Assembly: GCA_944387385.1 (NCBI GenBank)
Contig: CALXES010000005.1
Span: 1 to 64,000 of the forward strand
Length of the DNA: 64,000 nucleotides
DNA from: an uncultured Clostridia bacterium
GTDB lineage: Bacteria; Bacillota; Clostridia; TANB77; CAG-465
Direction: 5' to 3'
Of the stretch, positions 18,131 to 26,627 are shown in pieces. The translations under genes were made by a program, and so were the position numbers. How positions within the stretch are numbered: position 1 is the first letter of the stretch; every line of letters starts with the position of its first letter. The notes under the pieces are model-generated. The model was not told where the DNA came from. It did not search any database and was given only the letters and a program-made list of their open reading frames with translations.

Positions 18131-21100
18131 ATGAAAACTAGGAAATATTTTTTTATTATAATTTTGTTTTTTTTACTTATATTAGCTCCAAAAAGTGCTA
18201 TAGCACTTACTTCTGGAGCAGATAAGTTTGATACATTATATGTAGGTGTACCAGAGCATGACTCTGTTTATGGATACCCAGCTTTATATTACTATACATT
18301 AGATGGTGCAAGAGCATATTGTATTGAAATGGCTACAAGAATATATAAAACTGAGTATGCTGGATATGCATATAGTGATCCAAGAATTGGTTATGCTTTA
18401 ATAGCAGATCATGGTTATACATGGAATGATGCTGCAGACTTCCAAATTAGGCAGGCAGTTATATGGGCATTACTTGGTCAAATTAATATTGAAAACCTAT
18501 ATGCAGGTGATGCAGGGTGTGTTCAAGCTGCAAAAAATTTATATTATGCTGCAGCTTCATATAGTGGAACTGTTGGAAGTCCTAACATTTCAACAAGTTC
18601 AGTAGATTTTAATATAGAAGGAATGCAATATGTATCTAATCCAATATCAATAAGTAAAGCTCAAGGAAATGATTATTATGATATAACTCTTGGTGGATTT
18701 CCAGAAGGAACTTACCTTACAGATATGAATGGAAATATTATGCAGGCTAATGGTATTACTTGGGATAGTACTTTTCAAATAAGAATACCACTTGAAGTTA
18801 TAAAATATGATATAACAAATATAGATATGAAAGCAAATGGTGTTGGAAATGTATATAATACTACAACTGCATACTATTCTGTAGGCAGACCATCTCAACA
18901 GCTTCTTTCATCTCAAGCAAGTTCTTCAACAGGAGTTAGTTCATCAACATTTTATTTGGTTAAGCCAATAATAGCAAAAGGAAATTTAGAGGTAAAAAAA
19001 TCAGATGAGTATGGAGAACCAATTCCAGGAACTACATTTCAAATTACTAATGGAACAATAACTCTTACACAGGTTACAGGTGAAGATGGTATTGCAAGAT
19101 TTACAGATTTGCCAGCAGGCGAATATACTATAACTGAAACTAGTGCTGCTGAAGGATATTTTAATGACAGAACAAGTGTAAGCGCAAATGTAATAACTGG
19201 AATAACTGTTAATGCACAAAAAACAAATAAAGAAAGTAAAGGAAATGTTAGAATAATAAAGAGAGATTCAGAGACTGGTGAGACACCACAAGGTGATGCA
19301 ACATTATCTGGAGCAGTATATAAACTATATGCAAGAGAAGATATTTATGCGGCAAATAAAACGACTAAACTATTTTCTAAAGGCGATGAAGTTGGAACTT
19401 GTACTACAGGAGAAGATGGGGTTACAAACTATGTTGAGCTACCTTTAGGAAAGTATATGTATAAAGAGATTTCTGCATCTGAAGGTTATGTTTTAAATGA
19501 TGAAGAAGTGGATTTTACAATTTCTTATGATAATCAAGATGTAGAATTAATAGATAAGACATTTACAAGCAAAGAAGATGTAAAGAAAAATAATATAGAA
19601 ATTATAAAAAAATTACAGGCAACAGATTCTACGCCACAGCAAAATCTTGCAGGTGCAAAATTTTCTGCTACTTTAAAAAGCGATAGAAGTAAAGTTTACT
19701 ATTCAACAGTAACTGATAGCAGTGGATATTGTGTAATTGAAAATTTACCTTATGGTACATATGAAATCGAAGAAATTGAAGTACCAGCAAATGCTCTTAA
19801 AATAGATAATTTTGATGTATTTGTTGAAGAAGATTCAACAGAAAGAGAACCATATAGATATACAAAAGAAGATGTTGCTAAGAAAATGCAGATAACTATA
19901 TATAAAGAAGATAGAGAAACAGGAACAGCTACACAAGGTGATGCTAGACTTGAAGAGGCAGAATATACAATATATAGAGATGAAGCTTTAACAGATGCAG
20001 TTGAAACTGTAAGAATTGAAAAACAAGATGATGGTACTTATAGTGCAAAAACAGGATATTATTTAGTTGGAAAATATTATATTAAGGAAACAAAAAGACC
20101 AGAAGGGTATTTGGCAGATGAAGAAGTTCATGTTGTTGAGCAACTAGGAGAAAATCAAACAGAAGAAATATCTTATCATGAGATTACATCTACAGAGCTT
20201 GTAGAAAGAGGAAATATCTATATCGTAAAATATAAAGATAATAATACAAACTTTGATGAAGGATCAACAACAAAAGAGCCAGCTACTGGAGTTGAATTAA
20301 CACTTACTTTAAATTCAAATCCTTCAGTTACATATAAATCTGTAGTAAATGAAATAGGTTATGCAGAATTTATAGATATACCTTATGGTTGGTATACAAT
20401 TACAGAGACAAAAAGTTTAGAATTTGTTGATATTATGGATCCGCAAGAAGTATATATTTCAAAAGATGAGCAAAAATTATACTATATTGTTCAAGATCCA
20501 AGAAATGAAAGAAAGCTAAAGATAGTAAAAAAAGATGCAGAGACAGGTAATACTATTCCTCTTGCTGGAGCTACATTTAAAGTTTGGGATGTAGCAGAAA
20601 AAAGATATATTAAACAAAGTTTTGATTATCCAACTCAAACAGAAATTGAAGAATTCGTAACAGCAGCAGATGGTACATTGGTATTACCAGATGGATTAAT
20701 TCCAGGAGAATATGAACTTGAAGAGGTTACAGCACCATATGGATATACAATAAATGAAACTAGAATTCCTTTTACCATAAATGCTACAACACCTGAAAAT
20801 CCAGAACAAGAGGAAATAATTACTGTAGATTTTCCAGATACAGCTCAAAAAGCAAAAGTTGTTGTATATAAAAAAGGAGAAATACTTACTGGTACAACAA
20901 AAGAAGGTGAGATTACTAGACCTGTTTATGAAGAAAAAGGATTAAAGGGAGTAGAATATACAATAACAGCTAAAGAAGATATAGTTACACCAGACGGAAC
21001 AGTTAGAATGAAAGCAGGAGATACAGTTTCATTTAGAACAGATGAAGATGGTATTGGAATATCTCCAGAATTATATTTAGGTGAATATACAATAAAAGAA

Positions 21101-22606
21101 ACAGATACATTAGATGGATTATTAATTCAACAGAATGAAATATCTTTTGTTCTTGAATATAAAGGTCAAGATATAGATATATATGAAAAAAATATGGACT
21201 TTATTGATGTAAGACAAAAATTGAATTTAAAAGTTATGAAGAATATGCAAGAGCCAAAATATGATGATATATTAAATAATGCTTATGTAGATATAAGACT
21301 TGGTATTTATACAAGAGATGATTTGGCAAATGTAAATGGTGATATAATTATTGCAAAAGATACTTTAGTTGATATTTTAACTATTAGCGAAGATGGAATT
21401 TCAAGTCAAAACTATGATTTACCACTTGGAAAATATTATATAAAAGAAATTGAAACAAACGATAATTATTTAATAAATGAAAAGGAATATGATTTTGAAT
21501 TCAAGCCAAATGATAATACAACACCTGTAATAGATGTTATATTATCTAATGAAATAAATAATGATTTAACAGAACTAGGTAAATTTGAATTATATAAATA
21601 TGCAGAAGAAGATAAAAATATAATAGAAAGAATAGGTGATTTTTTTAATGGTGATAATCAAGATAGAACGCATGCTTTAGCTGGAGCTAAATTTAAATTT
21701 TATTACGATAAAAACGGTGAACCAGTAGAGTTAGTCTCTAAAACAGGTGTATCTGAATATGTTACTGATGAAAATGGTACTATTAGTTTAGATGAATTAC
21801 CATTTGGTAAATACTATTATAAAGAAATTGAAGCTCCAAAAGGATACGAACTTGATGATACAATGTACTCTTTTGAGATTACAAAATCTCATGTAAAAGA
21901 GCCATTAAGAATTGAAGTTTCAAATAAGCTTATAGATATAAAATTATTTACAAAAACAGATGCTTTTAATTCAGAAGTCATTCCAGACTGTGAATTTGAG
22001 ATACTAGATAAAGATCAAAATGTAATATATAAAGATAAGACTGATGAAAATGGTGAATTTTATATGCCTATTGATTTATTGACACCAGGAGAGATTTATT
22101 ATTATAAAGAAATAAGTGCACCAGATATATATGAGCTAAATGAAGACCCTCATGAATTTATATTAAATGAAGATCAAACTGTAAGTATAACAGAAGTAGA
22201 GAATTTAAGAAAATCTTCTACAGTAAAAATTAACAAGTCAGACTTCTTAGGAGGAGAAAAAATCCCTAACTGTACATTTAGACTAGAAAGTTTAGAAACA
22301 GACTTCAAAGTGGAAGGTACAACAGATGAAAATGGAGAATATTACTTTGAAAATATTCCTTATGGTGAATATACTTACACAGAAATAAGTGCACCAGAAA
22401 ATTATAGGATTGATACAACTCCACATAGAATAACTATTGATGAAGAAATGGAAGAAATAAATGTTAGTAATGAATTAATAGTAAATACTTCGGATATAAA
22501 TGTAATGTTATTTAGTGTTATATTGATAGCAAGTGCAATAGGAATAACTTTAATTGTATATAAGAATAGAGATAAAATAAGAGAATCTTTAATAAATAGA
22601 AAGTAA
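18131..22606 (+). CDS. Giant thioester-domain/CnaB-repeat surface adhesin
   Basis: 1491 residues. A signal peptide (about 1-25) is followed by a thioester domain: Cys64 in ARAYCIEM and Gln108 in FQIRQAVIWALL match the Cys-Gln pair that forms an internal thioester in Gram-positive adhesins. From about residue 275 there are about eleven CnaB-type beta domains, each with a lysine near the start and a YxxxE box such as YTITETSAAEGY or YYYKEIEAPKGY, the elements of intramolecular isopeptide bonds. The end has a hydrophobic helix and basic tail, but the sorting motif position reads VNTSD. No sortase gene lies in the window. TTGGAGG ribosome site. Confidence 0.93.
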   Translation: MKTRKYFFIIILFFLLILAPKSAIALTSGADKFDTLYVGVPEHDSVYGYPALYYYTLDGARAYCIEMATRIYKTEYAGYAYSDPRIGYALIADHGYTWNDAADFQIRQAVIWALLGQINIENLYAGDAGCVQAAKNLYYAAASYSGTVGSPNISTSSVDFNIEGMQYVSNPISISKAQGNDYYDITLGGFPEGTYLTDMNGNIMQANGITWDSTFQIRIPLEVIKYDITNIDMKANGVGNVYNTTTAYYSVGRPSQQLLSSQASSSTGVSSSTFYLVKPIIAKGNLEVKKSDEYGEPIPGTTFQITNGTITLTQVTGEDGIARFTDLPAGEYTITETSAAEGYFNDRTSVSANVITGITVNAQKTNKESKGNVRIIKRDSETGETPQGDATLSGAVYKLYAREDIYAANKTTKLFSKGDEVGTCTTGEDGVTNYVELPLGKYMYKEISASEGYVLNDEEVDFTISYDNQDVELIDKTFTSKEDVKKNNIEIIKKLQATDSTPQQNLAGAKFSATLKSDRSKVYYSTVTDSSGYCVIENLPYGTYEIEEIEVPANALKIDNFDVFVEEDSTEREPYRYTKEDVAKKMQITIYKEDRETGTATQGDARLEEAEYTIYRDEALTDAVETVRIEKQDDGTYSAKTGYYLVGKYYIKETKRPEGYLADEEVHVVEQLGENQTEEISYHEITSTELVERGNIYIVKYKDNNTNFDEGSTTKEPATGVELTLTLNSNPSVTYKSVVNEIGYAEFIDIPYGWYTITETKSLEFVDIMDPQEVYISKDEQKLYYIVQDPRNERKLKIVKKDAETGNTIPLAGATFKVWDVAEKRYIKQSFDYPTQTEIEEFVTAADGTLVLPDGLIPGEYELEEVTAPYGYTINETRIPFTINATTPENPEQEEIITVDFPDTAQKAKVVVYKKGEILTGTTKEGEITRPVYEEKGLKGVEYTITAKEDIVTPDGTVRMKAGDTVSFRTDEDGIGISPELYLGEYTIKETDTLDGLLIQQNEISFVLEYKGQDIDIYEKNMDFIDVRQKLNLKVMKNMQEPKYDDILNNAYVDIRLGIYTRDDLANVNGDIIIAKDTLVDILTISEDGISSQNYDLPLGKYYIKEIETNDNYLINEKEYDFEFKPNDNTTPVIDVILSNEINNDLTELGKFELYKYAEEDKNIIERIGDFFNGDNQDRTHALAGAKFKFYYDKNGEPVELVSKTGVSEYVTDENGTISLDELPFGKYYYKEIEAPKGYELDDTMYSFEITKSHVKEPLRIEVSNKLIDIKLFTKTDAFNSEVIPDCEFEILDKDQNVIYKDKTDENGEFYMPIDLLTPGEIYYYKEISAPDIYELNEDPHEFILNEDQTVSITEVENLRKSSTVKINKSDFLGGEKIPNCTFRLESLETDFKVEGTTDENGEYYFENIPYGEYTYTEISAPENYRIDTTPHRITIDEEMEEINVSNELIVNTSDINVMLFSVILIASAIGITLIVYKNRDKIRESLINRK

Positions 22607-22616
22607 AAAATAATGT

Positions 22617-22652
22617 AAAGAGAATATCCATAATATATTGGTATTCTCTTTG
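22617..22652 (+). terminator. Probable terminator between the adhesin genes
   Basis: AAAGAGAATA-C pairs with G-TATTCTCTTT around an AT loop; the T tract is short (TTTGTTATTT). Confidence 0.55.
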
Positions 22653-22739
22653 TTATTTATAGTGTGAAATATTTGTGAAACTTATTTGTAATATTAAGTA
22701 ATAAAAAAAGGTATTTTGTAGTTTTTTAAAAAATTGTGG

Positions 22740-22768
22740 TTGAAATTAAAAATTCTTAATGATATGAT
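22740..22768 (+). promoter_or_regulatory. sigma-A promoter of the second adhesin gene
   Basis: TTGAAA at 22740-22745, 17 bases, TATGAT at 22763-22768. A hairpin AAAATAAAA / TTTTATTTT follows in the leader at about 22780-22802. Confidence 0.6.
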
Positions 22769-22835
22769 TTTATTATCAGAAAATAAAATACGTTTTATTT
22801 TTTGTGAGAAAAATAAAAGGAGAGGGAGAGATTAT

Positions 22836-25800
22836 ATGAAAATAAGTAAGCTTAAATACGTATTTGCTTTTGTACTTTTAGTTGCAGTATCAGTAGTATG
22901 CACAAACGTACAAGCAGCTACAATGCCTAATAATGGACAAATTAAATTAAGCACTATTATAGCATCTCAACTTGCCGCAATTGAAGATGGTGATGAAGAT
23001 CCATCTACACCTGTTCTTGATAAAGTAGTTAAGAGTTTTAATACTCCATATCAAGCTACTGTATTAGGTACAACTATGAATCCAGTACAATTTTATACTT
23101 TAAAAGTAAAAAGTTCTGGAGCAAACATTAAAGCTTATAGCTTAAATGTTGGTAATATTGTAGGCGATGAAGTTGAATTTGATTATGCTGGGACTTCTTC
23201 AAATGTAAGAGTTGGTCTTGGTTTGGCATTTGGTCTAAATTCTCTAACACTAGATCAATTAGAAAACCAAGCTAATTTAGACAGCTATAATAGCGAATAT
23301 TCATTAGCTACACAAATGTATATTTGGTTAGCAAACGCTAATGCTTTAGGAACAGCACAAGAAACTGATGCAATTTCAAGCTTAAGTGGAGTTGCAAGAG
23401 ACAGATATACATATATAAGAAATGGTGTAGAACAAGCATTATTAAAACCTTCATATGCATATAATTCACAAGGTGAAGCAACAGCTCAACCAATTGAAAT
23501 GGGATGGAGCGAAGCAAACCAAAGATATGAAGTAACATTAACAGATAGTAATGCTCTTGATACAATGGCTTTAGTTAACTTAGCAATTGAGCCAGGTTCA
23601 GGAATAAGCTATAGTAAATCAGGAAATAGTATAACATTCTTTACTACAGAACAAATTGGATCAATAAGCAATCCAGCAACTGTAGTTGTAAGAAAATCAA
23701 TAAATGGTGGAAGATATGTTGCTGGAGTTGCAACTCTTAAAGATGGTTCTAAATCTTTAACATATCTTACAGGTTCATCAGTAAATAATGATACTTACTA
23801 TGTAAGTTTCTATACTAATGCATTAAGAGTTAGAGTTCAAAAGACTTTAAATCCAAGTGATGCAAATCCAAATACTGGTGATGCAACTGTAGAAGGAGCA
23901 AGATATGGTGTATATTCAGATCAAGGATGTACACAATTAGTTCAAGAGATAGTAACTGATGCAAATGGTATTGCTATAACAAATCCACTTGAATATAAAG
24001 ATTACTATGTAAAAGAACTAGCTGCTTCTGAGGGATGTAAACTAAATGATGCAGTTGTTACAGCTTCTGCAGGTTCAGCAAAAGATGAAAATGGACAAAG
24101 AGTAGTAACTGTTGAGTCTAAAGAAAATGTGATTTATGGTGGATTTAGAATGATAGTTTCTAATAGCCCAGATTTAAGTGGAAATACAACAAAAGTTCCA
24201 TCTGTTGGATCTGAGATTACAGTAACATTAGACAGTCGTCCAGAAGAAAAATATGTTGCAGAAGTTAATGAAGATGGTTATGTTGAATTTAAAAACTTAC
24301 CATATGGACAATATACATGTACAGAAACAAAAAGACCAAATGTTGACGGTAGTGATAAATTAGATCTTATGGATCCTATGTCAATAACTATAGATCGTGA
24401 AGAAGAATTTATTTACTCTAAAATAGTTAACACAGAGGTTGCTCAAAGATATGTAAAAATTGAAAAAAGAGATGCTGAAACAGGAAAACTTGTTACAGGA
24501 ACTCCAACTACATATCAAATAAAAAATTCAAAAAATGAAATAATTACTCAAAAGAATATGTATCCAAATGTTGTAGAAATGGATCAATTTGTAACAGCAG
24601 ATGAGGATGCAATTTATGGATATGCTGTATTACCAGAAAAATTACCTGCTGATACATATACTGTTTATGAAATAACTGCTCCAGAGGGATATTACAATCA
24701 ATCAGTTGCAGAAAATAAACCAATAGCAACATTTACAGTTGAACCAAATTCAACAGAAGACTATGACAGAGATGAAATAGTTGTTGTACCAACTGAAAAT
24801 ATTGCTCAAAAAGGTATAGTAAACATTAGTGTTAAAGGTAATGTTCTAACAGGAGTAAATACTGAGGATGCTTATGGTCAATCTAATGTTAATCGTCCTG
24901 CATATACTTCACAACCAATTCCAGGAGCTAAATTTGAATTAATAGCTAATGAAGATATAGTAACTGGTGATGGAACAGTAAGAATGAAAGCTGGAGAAAA
25001 ACTTGAGTTAACAAGTGATGAAAGTGGTAAGATTCAAACAAAATTATATATAGGAAGCTATACATTAAGAATGGTTGAAGTACCAGAAGGATATGTATTA
25101 GATACTGAAGATAGACCAATAACAGTAGAAGCTCAAAAACAAAAAGTTAAAGAGTATACTTTACCTACTGAAAACTATACATTAACAAGACAAGATTATG
25201 ATTTAGAAGTAACTAAAACATTTAGTGGATTAAACTTCTATAAACAAGATGAATTAGATAATGTTGAATCAATAGATTCAGATGCATATGCTGATGTAAT
25301 AGTTGGTATATATGCTTCAGAAGATATAACAAATGTTAAAGGAACAGTAGTTATACCAAAAGATACTTTAGTTGATGTTGTAATCTTTGATAAAGATGGA
25401 AAAGGTTCATTTGAATCTGAATATCCAATGGGTAAATTCTATGCAAAAGAACTAGCAACAAATGTAAATTATGAGTTATCTAATGAAAAATATGAATTTG
25501 AAACAAAACCAACAGATAACACTACAGAAAGATTTAGTGTTAATATTGGAGAAATAGTAAATGAAGCATTAAAAGTAACTAAATTCAACTTTACAAAAAT
25601 TGAAGAAGTTATGGTAGATGATGAAAATGGTGATACTGAAGTATCATTAATTGAAAGAGTAGAACAATTTATGGAAGGTATTCTTGATGGTATTTTAGCA
25701 GATGTTGAGAAAACAACTTCTGTTACTAGACTTGAAGGTGCTGAATATAAAGTGCTATACTTAGATGAAGATGGACAATATTATCCATTACTTGAAAAAG

Positions 25801-26627
25801 TAGATGATGAGTATGTTGAAGTTGTTCGTACTACAGATGAAAATGGTGAATTTGTAATTGAAGGACTACCATTTGGTAGCTATGCTGTTCAAGAAACAAA
25901 AGCTCCTAGATATTATAATTTAGATGAAAAAAGCTATGGATTTGTATTAAGTACAACTGAGACTGAAAAAGAACTTGTACTACAAGATGTACGTACAAAA
26001 GTTGATGTTAATATTGCTGTTGTAGATGAAGACGGTAATAAATTAGAAAAAGCTATGGTTCAATTAGTTGATCCAGATACAAAAGAAGTTGTATACGAGG
26101 CTGAAACTAATGAAGAAGGCGTAGCAAGCTTTACAGATATTAGAGCTGGAAGATATATTAGACAAGTTACAGATTTAGCTGAACAATATGTTGTTCCTGC
26201 TGCTAAAGAATTATATCTAGAAGAAGATAACGAATTAGTTGAAACAGTTACAGTTAAATATATTACTGGTAACATCTTAATAAATAAAACAGATGATGAA
26301 ACTGGTGAAGTTGTTCCTGGATGCTTATTCAGAATAACTAACGAAGCTGGTGAAGTTGTTGCAGAAGAAAGAACAGATGATAATGGTCAATTATTAGTAG
26401 CTGGTCTAAGATATGGTGTATACTATGTTGAAGAAGTAGAAGCTGCTGAAGGATATGATAAATCTGATTTAGTATTTGAAGTAACAATTACTGAAGATGG
26501 ACAAACATATGTAGTTGACTTTACAAATGTTCCAACTGGAGATATTGCAGTAGCTTTATATGCAGTAATTGCACTTATTTCTGTAGGAGCTATAGCATTA
26601 ACAGTTAAAAAATTAAGAATGAACTAA
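22836..26627 (+). CDS. CnaB-repeat surface protein with degenerate thioester domain
   Basis: 1263 residues from ATG 22836, preceded by AGGAGAGGGAG; the longer frame from 22734 lacks a ribosome site and would put a leader before the signal peptide. The signal peptide (about 1-28) ends NVQAA. The N-terminal domain is homologous to the thioester domain of the upstream protein, but the cysteine position is Ser102 (KAYSLN) while the glutamine is kept as Gln160 in ATQMYIWLA. About eight CnaB domains follow. The C-terminus has VPTGD, a hydrophobic helix and a basic tail, a plausible variant sortase signal. Likely tandem paralogue of the previous gene. Confidence 0.93.
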   Translation: MKISKLKYVFAFVLLVAVSVVCTNVQAATMPNNGQIKLSTIIASQLAAIEDGDEDPSTPVLDKVVKSFNTPYQATVLGTTMNPVQFYTLKVKSSGANIKAYSLNVGNIVGDEVEFDYAGTSSNVRVGLGLAFGLNSLTLDQLENQANLDSYNSEYSLATQMYIWLANANALGTAQETDAISSLSGVARDRYTYIRNGVEQALLKPSYAYNSQGEATAQPIEMGWSEANQRYEVTLTDSNALDTMALVNLAIEPGSGISYSKSGNSITFFTTEQIGSISNPATVVVRKSINGGRYVAGVATLKDGSKSLTYLTGSSVNNDTYYVSFYTNALRVRVQKTLNPSDANPNTGDATVEGARYGVYSDQGCTQLVQEIVTDANGIAITNPLEYKDYYVKELAASEGCKLNDAVVTASAGSAKDENGQRVVTVESKENVIYGGFRMIVSNSPDLSGNTTKVPSVGSEITVTLDSRPEEKYVAEVNEDGYVEFKNLPYGQYTCTETKRPNVDGSDKLDLMDPMSITIDREEEFIYSKIVNTEVAQRYVKIEKRDAETGKLVTGTPTTYQIKNSKNEIITQKNMYPNVVEMDQFVTADEDAIYGYAVLPEKLPADTYTVYEITAPEGYYNQSVAENKPIATFTVEPNSTEDYDRDEIVVVPTENIAQKGIVNISVKGNVLTGVNTEDAYGQSNVNRPAYTSQPIPGAKFELIANEDIVTGDGTVRMKAGEKLELTSDESGKIQTKLYIGSYTLRMVEVPEGYVLDTEDRPITVEAQKQKVKEYTLPTENYTLTRQDYDLEVTKTFSGLNFYKQDELDNVESIDSDAYADVIVGIYASEDITNVKGTVVIPKDTLVDVVIFDKDGKGSFESEYPMGKFYAKELATNVNYELSNEKYEFETKPTDNTTERFSVNIGEIVNEALKVTKFNFTKIEEVMVDDENGDTEVSLIERVEQFMEGILDGILADVEKTTSVTRLEGAEYKVLYLDEDGQYYPLLEKVDDEYVEVVRTTDENGEFVIEGLPFGSYAVQETKAPRYYNLDEKSYGFVLSTTETEKELVLQDVRTKVDVNIAVVDEDGNKLEKAMVQLVDPDTKEVVYEAETNEEGVASFTDIRAGRYIRQVTDLAEQYVVPAAKELYLEEDNELVETVTVKYITGNILINKTDDETGEVVPGCLFRITNEAGEVVAEERTDDNGQLLVAGLRYGVYYVEEVEAAEGYDKSDLVFEVTITEDGQTYVVDFTNVPTGDIAVALYAVIALISVGAIALTVKKLRMN

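Follow-up and report, generated by a model that had tools for sequence, protein, structure and literature searches.

In this study, two adjacent genes for surface proteins, designated P1 and P2, were analyzed in a 64,000-nt stretch of DNA (the window; contig CALXES010000005.1 of assembly GCA_944387385.1) from an uncultured, gut-type Clostridia bacterium. Each deduced protein consists of a signal peptide, a head that is or resembles a thioester domain (TED), a stalk of SpaA/CnaB repeats and a C-terminal membrane segment (Table 1). Pfam detected 11 SpaA stretches in the P1 stalk (E = 8.5e-136). The stalks of P1 and P2 are homologous (31% over about 960 aa), which suggests that the pair arose by an old tandem duplication; the heads are distant from each other (hhalign E 0.009). 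The open reading frame of P2 called mechanically begins with TTG at 22734, and the likely start is the ATG at 22836, preceded by a GGAGAGG ribosome site. A first-pass annotation, made from the sequence alone, had pointed to Cys64 and Gln108 in P1 and to Ser102 and Gln160 in P2, and these residues are present as quoted. Their roles turned out to be different from those proposed: the bond-forming Gln lies elsewhere in both heads, and at that position P2 carries a lysine, Lys306.

Table 1. Features of the P1/P2 locus and of related TED genes. Coordinates are those of the window unless a genome and contig are given
Feature	Position	Strand	Evidence or remark
P1 surface adhesin, 1491 aa	18131..22606	+	Open reading frame
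P1 layout: signal peptide, class II thioester domain, 11 SpaA/CnaB repeats, C-terminal membrane/sorting segment	18131..22606	+	
P1 thioester domain, residues 25-288	18203..18994	+	9-orthologue alignment
P1 Cys64, predicted thioester nucleophile (ARAYCIEM, codon TGT)	18320..18322	+	Cys in 9/9 orthologues
P1 Gln108, helical TQxxPhiW motif (RQAVIW), not the bond partner	18452..18454	+	
P1 Gln256 (PSQQLL), predicted true thioester partner	18896..18898	+	Gln in 9/9 orthologues
P1 C-terminal segment: IVNTSDI, membrane helix, basic tail; sorting-signal-like	22469..22603	+	Sequence, orthologues
Promoter-like TTGAAA-17-TATGAT with extended -10, in the P1-P2 gap	22740..22768	+	Consensus match only; regional site numbers at chance level
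P2 surface protein, 1263 aa	22836..26627	+	
P2 layout: signal peptide, thioester-less TED-like head, 8 SpaA/CnaB repeats, C-terminal NVPTGDI and membrane helix	22836..26627	+	
P2 TED-like head, residues 28-336	22917..23843	+	14 orthologues, one clade, support 100/100
P2 Ser102 at the thioester-Cys position, codon AGC	23139..23141	+	
P2 Gln160, TQ-motif Gln (ATQMYIW), structural, not the bond partner	23313..23315	+	Kept in 14/14
P2 Lys306 at the true thioester-Gln position	23751..23753	+	
P2 C-terminal segment: NVPTGDI, membrane helix, basic tail; sorting-signal-like	26490..26624	+	
b in the window's genome (L147)	G000:C2:539-3520		Start of contig C2
s in the window's genome (L146)	G000:C8:1-1086		Start of contig C8; L133-L146 in relatives
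TED proteins with Ser and the true Gln, candidates for a Ser-Gln ester	L200, L201, L202, L203, L228		

Two glutamines have to be distinguished in TEDs. The one that forms the bond sits in beta-strand Q, after the helices and far downstream, and the one in the helical TQxxPhiW motif was not required for the bond by mutagenesis; in structures the latter forms a hydrogen bond with the Cys backbone (PMC4450167, PMC6194298). The Cys/Gln positions are 71/266 in BaTIE, 296/467 in SaTIE, 88/292 in EfmTIE86 and, by model, 68/256 in TIEpLS20. P1 and P2 were aligned jointly with 11 paralogues and with two TIE proteins of Bacillus; the TIEpLS20 sequence was taken from plasmid pLS20. Results showed that RQAVIW of P1 and ATQMYIW of P2 are the helical TQxxPhiW motif and that the Cys-position and TQ motifs of the two proteins occupy the same columns. 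The Cys column contained Cys in P1 (9/9 orthologues), the paralogues (11/11) and both Bacillus proteins, and Ser, Gly or Ala in P2 (14/14). Another single column contained Gln256 of P1, Gln256 of TIEpLS20, the Gln of the QP motif in 11/11 Cys-bearing paralogues, and Lys306 of P2.

The two glutamines were separated directly by 14 Cys-bearing TEDs of the same order, in which ATKxAxY (ITK in one) replaces ATQ and the strand-Q Gln, located 205–212 residues after the Cys, is kept in 14/14. Based on the structures in the literature, the joint alignment and these TK-type TEDs, Gln108 and Gln160 were rejected as bond partners. The pairing of Cys64 with Gln108 proposed in the first-pass annotation was thus replaced by that of Cys64 with Gln256. 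The TK-type protein (L183-L199) is a common small TED of about 430 aa in the order.

The structural model of the P1 N-terminal region had a mean predicted local distance difference test score (pLDDT) of 73.8, with the first 50 residues poorly modelled. When this model was compared by Foldseek with 350,542 PDB chains, the best four matches were class II TEDs (6fwy and 6fwv), with E values from 5e-9 to 2e-7 and modest template modelling scores (TM-scores) of 0.30–0.44; by this comparison P1 has the class II TED fold. Both the Cys in a [YFL]C-Phi motif and the Gln in strand Q were found in 9/9 orthologues. Gln256 is 192 residues after Cys64 and was assigned as its partner from the class II spacing and the joint alignment with TIEpLS20. 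Another candidate, Gln216 (FQIRIP; 152 residues after the Cys, a class I-like spacing), was discarded, since in the alignment it falls on a beta-sandwich strand of 6fwy and P1 belongs to class II by fold. P1 would be a covalent adhesin of the usual class II TIE type, in which the side chains of Cys64 and Gln256 form an internal thioester in a head carried on 11 CnaB/SpaA repeats and anchored at the C terminus. By analogy to SfbI, in which the thioester acylates an amine of the target, the buried Cys64-Gln256 thioester would most likely acylate an amine on the target of P1.

Orthologues of P2 were found in 14/28 genomes of the genus and in 0/163 others in the order; the set analyzed consisted of the window's P2 and 13 sequences from relatives. 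Residue 102 was Ser in nine, Gly in three and Ala in two, with Cys in none, and the strand-Q position was Lys in six, Glu in three and Gln in five. Rows with Ser always had Lys or Glu (Lys in 6/9), rows with Gly or Ala always had Gln, and Ser together with the true Gln was seen in 0/14. This split is perfect in the 14 rows; because two switches on the tree, or possibly one, would account for it, it is weak as evidence for covariation. The mature P2 head contains no other cysteine. The window's P2 therefore has neither the thioester Cys nor the strand-Q Gln, and we infer that its head cannot make a thioester and has no bond at that site, as the first-pass annotation had concluded for the thioester; neither the alternative cysteine nor the Cys-bearing orthologue (0/14) that would speak against this was found. 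That annotation was also right in aligning Ser102 with the Cys column and Gln160 with the corresponding column of P1, but this column is that of the TQ motif, and what had been taken for a bond Gln retained beside a serine is a residue present in almost every TED. A Ser conserved across orthologues, which it had named as support for a functional variant, is not what the Gly and Ala rows show. Gln273 (TTEQIG), invariant in a 12-sequence alignment, was also considered as a partner and rejected: it lies in the beta-sandwich, at a position where Gln is absent from the Cys-bearing paralogues.

Among Cys-bearing proteins, the P2 head is most closely related to the 11 paralogues read in the genus, all of which (11/11) have YC, the TQ Gln (as ATQ or GTQ) and QP[LMIV]. 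The P2 clade (support 100/100) stands beside them in the tree. HHalign of P2 against these paralogues gave a probability of 99.8% and an E value of 4e-28 over 214 columns, covering the helical and the beta-sandwich parts, and independently of the joint alignment it paired KSLTYL of P2 with QPLTRL of the paralogues. Some P2 orthologues also reached the curated cut-off of the Pfam TED family PF08341, as did that of genome G006 at 23.8 bits. From this homology we infer a TED fold for P2. Several observations weigh against such a reading. The window's own P2 had no PF08341 match, only some orthologues having one. Foldseek of the P2 model (pLDDT 84.4) against PDB gave no TED among the hits listed, the best ones being Ig-like domains with E values of 0.09 or more, so that the fold assignment rests on sequence homology; nor was a TED recovered when PDB sequences were searched with profiles of P2 or of the paralogues. 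Furthermore, the strand-Q alignment within P2 might slip by one residue, as illustrated by GEQF in G004.

Decay, in which a TED that has lost its chemistry drifts, had been one of the possibilities raised for P2, and the variability of residue 102 (Ser, Gly or Ala) and of the Gln column (Lys, Glu or Gln) is what would be expected from it. However, P2 is under purifying selection. The ratio of nonsynonymous to synonymous substitution rates (dN/dS) of the head was 0.13–0.24 between close species, not above that of its own stalk, and reading frames were open over the stretches read in 14/14 orthologues; dozens of columns, including the Gln, Tyr and Trp of the TQ motif, were invariant in 12 of them. 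On the dN/dS values P2 was rejected as a pseudogene, and decay is very unlikely. Synonymous divergence between close species was 2–3 times lower in P2 than in the neighbouring P1; between the window's species and G019, for example, it was about 0.25 in P2 and 0.59–0.78 in P1. A codon-bias comparison of P2 with P1 for higher expression of P2 revealed no clear difference.

We also considered whether an ester, Ser-Gln or Ser-Glu, might replace the thioester as the intramolecular bond of the P2 head. When engineered, ester domains can use Ser with either Gln or Glu (PMC12679949), and Ser and Glu do occur at the two positions in three P2 orthologues. A conserved hydroxyl opposite Gln or Glu is nevertheless missing: residue 102 is Gly or Ala in 5/14 orthologues, Lys stands opposite in 6/9 Ser rows, and the window's P2 itself pairs Ser102 with Lys306, which is no electrophile. 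Known ester domains need a base and buried acids in addition. A Ser-Gln ester in P2 was rejected on these orthologue residues; most likely no ester forms at this site, and an ester of either kind in the P2 head is highly improbable.

The explanation we favour, to which we assign a probability of about 0.72, is that P1 is a covalent class II TED adhesin and that P2 has, on its CnaB stalk, a class II TED head that lacks the thioester and is maintained by selection. The P2 head would still be folded as a class II TED, with the TQxxPhiW helix packed on the backbone at the Cys position, and would have lost both bond formers, Cys becoming Ser102 and Gln becoming Lys306. Retention of the TQ Gln would be explained by this packing of the helix on the former Cys strand, the residue being kept for the fold. 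Selection would have kept the head in a non-covalent role on its 8-repeat stalk, either as a non-covalent adhesin or as a structural cap. In TIEpLS20, which has a class II TED, the C68S change abolishes function (PMC8092201), and P2 must therefore work otherwise.

The gene order at the locus is conserved as truB, an ABC-permease-like gene, P1, P2, and Sir2 and/or cysE. The relatives' genomes are probably mostly metagenome assemblies, and a genome-contig scan yielded three loci only, from uncultured Clostridia or Clostridiaceae bacteria. The C-terminal motifs of P1 (IVNTSDI) and P2 (NVPTGDI) are not of the LPXTG type, and in the orthologues, too, they follow a common pattern, xT[GSA]DI. The genome encodes six sortases at other sites, and no sortase gene was found adjoining the pair. 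Both proteins may be anchored to the surface by a sortase acting on this non-canonical, VPTGD-like end; the unusual form of the end counts against this part of the proposal.

The first-pass annotation had suggested that tip-like and stalk-like proteins divide the labour. We considered this in the form that P1 would be placed at a tip and P2 would form or support the shaft. P1 and P2 were adjacent in 10/14 genomes, P1 orthologues were found only beside P2, and the homology of the stalks also fits such a partnership. On the other hand, in G003, G006, G009 and G041 (4/14) P2 occupies the same chromosomal place with no P1 gene beside it, so that a strict division of labour is not supported; the head-stalk-anchor design is common to both proteins, no pilin motif was demonstrated, and a sortase gene next to the pair is lacking. 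A shaft function for P2 is accordingly considered unlikely.

A PF08341 search within the genus exposed a second pair, designated b and s, and other genera were covered by profile search. Protein b is an intact TED adhesin with AYC[IVM]DY, ATQxALW and QDYV. Directly downstream is s, a type II membrane protein about 470 aa long that carries AYSLTY, ATQLAVY and KKKYVVL; its Cys position holds Ser in 13/14 and Ala in one, and its strand-Q Gln is replaced, mostly by Lys. The b/s pair is conserved in the genus and lies at a locus unrelated to that of P1/P2; in G014 and G020 (L136, L137) the s gene carries a frameshift or an interruption, but it is intact in most relatives. Since s lies downstream of an intact TED, an intact and a bond-dead TED have come to be paired at two loci. 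This recurrence would agree with P2 being an accessory protein (a decoy, chaperone or regulator) whose TED-like head contacts the head of P1 or of another TED. Against it, P2 persists in the four genomes named above where P1 is missing, and outside the genus the s-like proteins were solitary in the regions read, which makes an accessory role rather improbable. An s with Ser and Lys was also found outside the genus, in G045.

The combination of Ser with the true Gln, which had been attributed to P2 as unusual, is instead carried by five TED membrane proteins in other genera (two in G160 and one each in G221, G373 and G375). In the three that were measured, the Ser-to-Gln spacing was 213–216 residues, a spacing like that of TEDs, and one compared with the Cys-bearing b showed 55% identity. 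It is a tentative suggestion, less probable than not, that bond-dead TEDs are a recurrent, selected class arising beside intact TED adhesins, as in P1/P2 and b/s, and that the Ser and Gln sister form may make a hydrolysable ester and act as a reversible covalent adhesin.

Comparison with known systems showed the closest resemblance to the class II TEDs of TIE proteins (BaTIE, 6fwv; EfmTIE86, 6fwy; SaTIE). The P1 head is alike in fold by Foldseek, the order of Cys strand, TQxxPhiW helix, beta-sandwich insert and Gln strand is the same, a CnaB stalk follows, and the Cys-Gln spacing of 192 in P1 compares with 171–204 in these domains. P2 differs from them by the absence of both bond formers, and both proteins differ by their sorting motifs. 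TIEpLS20 of the Bacillus subtilis plasmid pLS20 aligns through Cys68 and Gln256 with Cys64 and Gln256 of P1, and the engineered Cys-to-Ser change that abolishes its function is natural in P2. Ester-bond domains of the Cpe0147 type (Thr-Gln) share the idea of a hydroxyl nucleophile, and engineered Ser/Gln and Ser/Glu forms can react; they differ in fold and site, and P2 has no conserved Ser or Gln at the bond positions. A further likeness is to complement C5 and other thioester-less members of the TEP family, in which the fold is kept and the bond lost; their fold is unrelated to that of TEDs, and only the chemistry is convergent.

In papers on TEDs the Cys and the Gln are called the only universally conserved TED residues, and the literature searched, which did not cover subscription journals, yielded no report of a thioester-less TED. 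For annotation, the TQxxPhiW Gln is easily spotted, but it is not the thioester Gln and is uninformative on TED activity. A conserved TED lineage with neither Cys nor Gln shows that there is a use for the fold without the bond, and P1 and P2 offer a natural comparison of covalent and non-covalent adhesion on related stalks.

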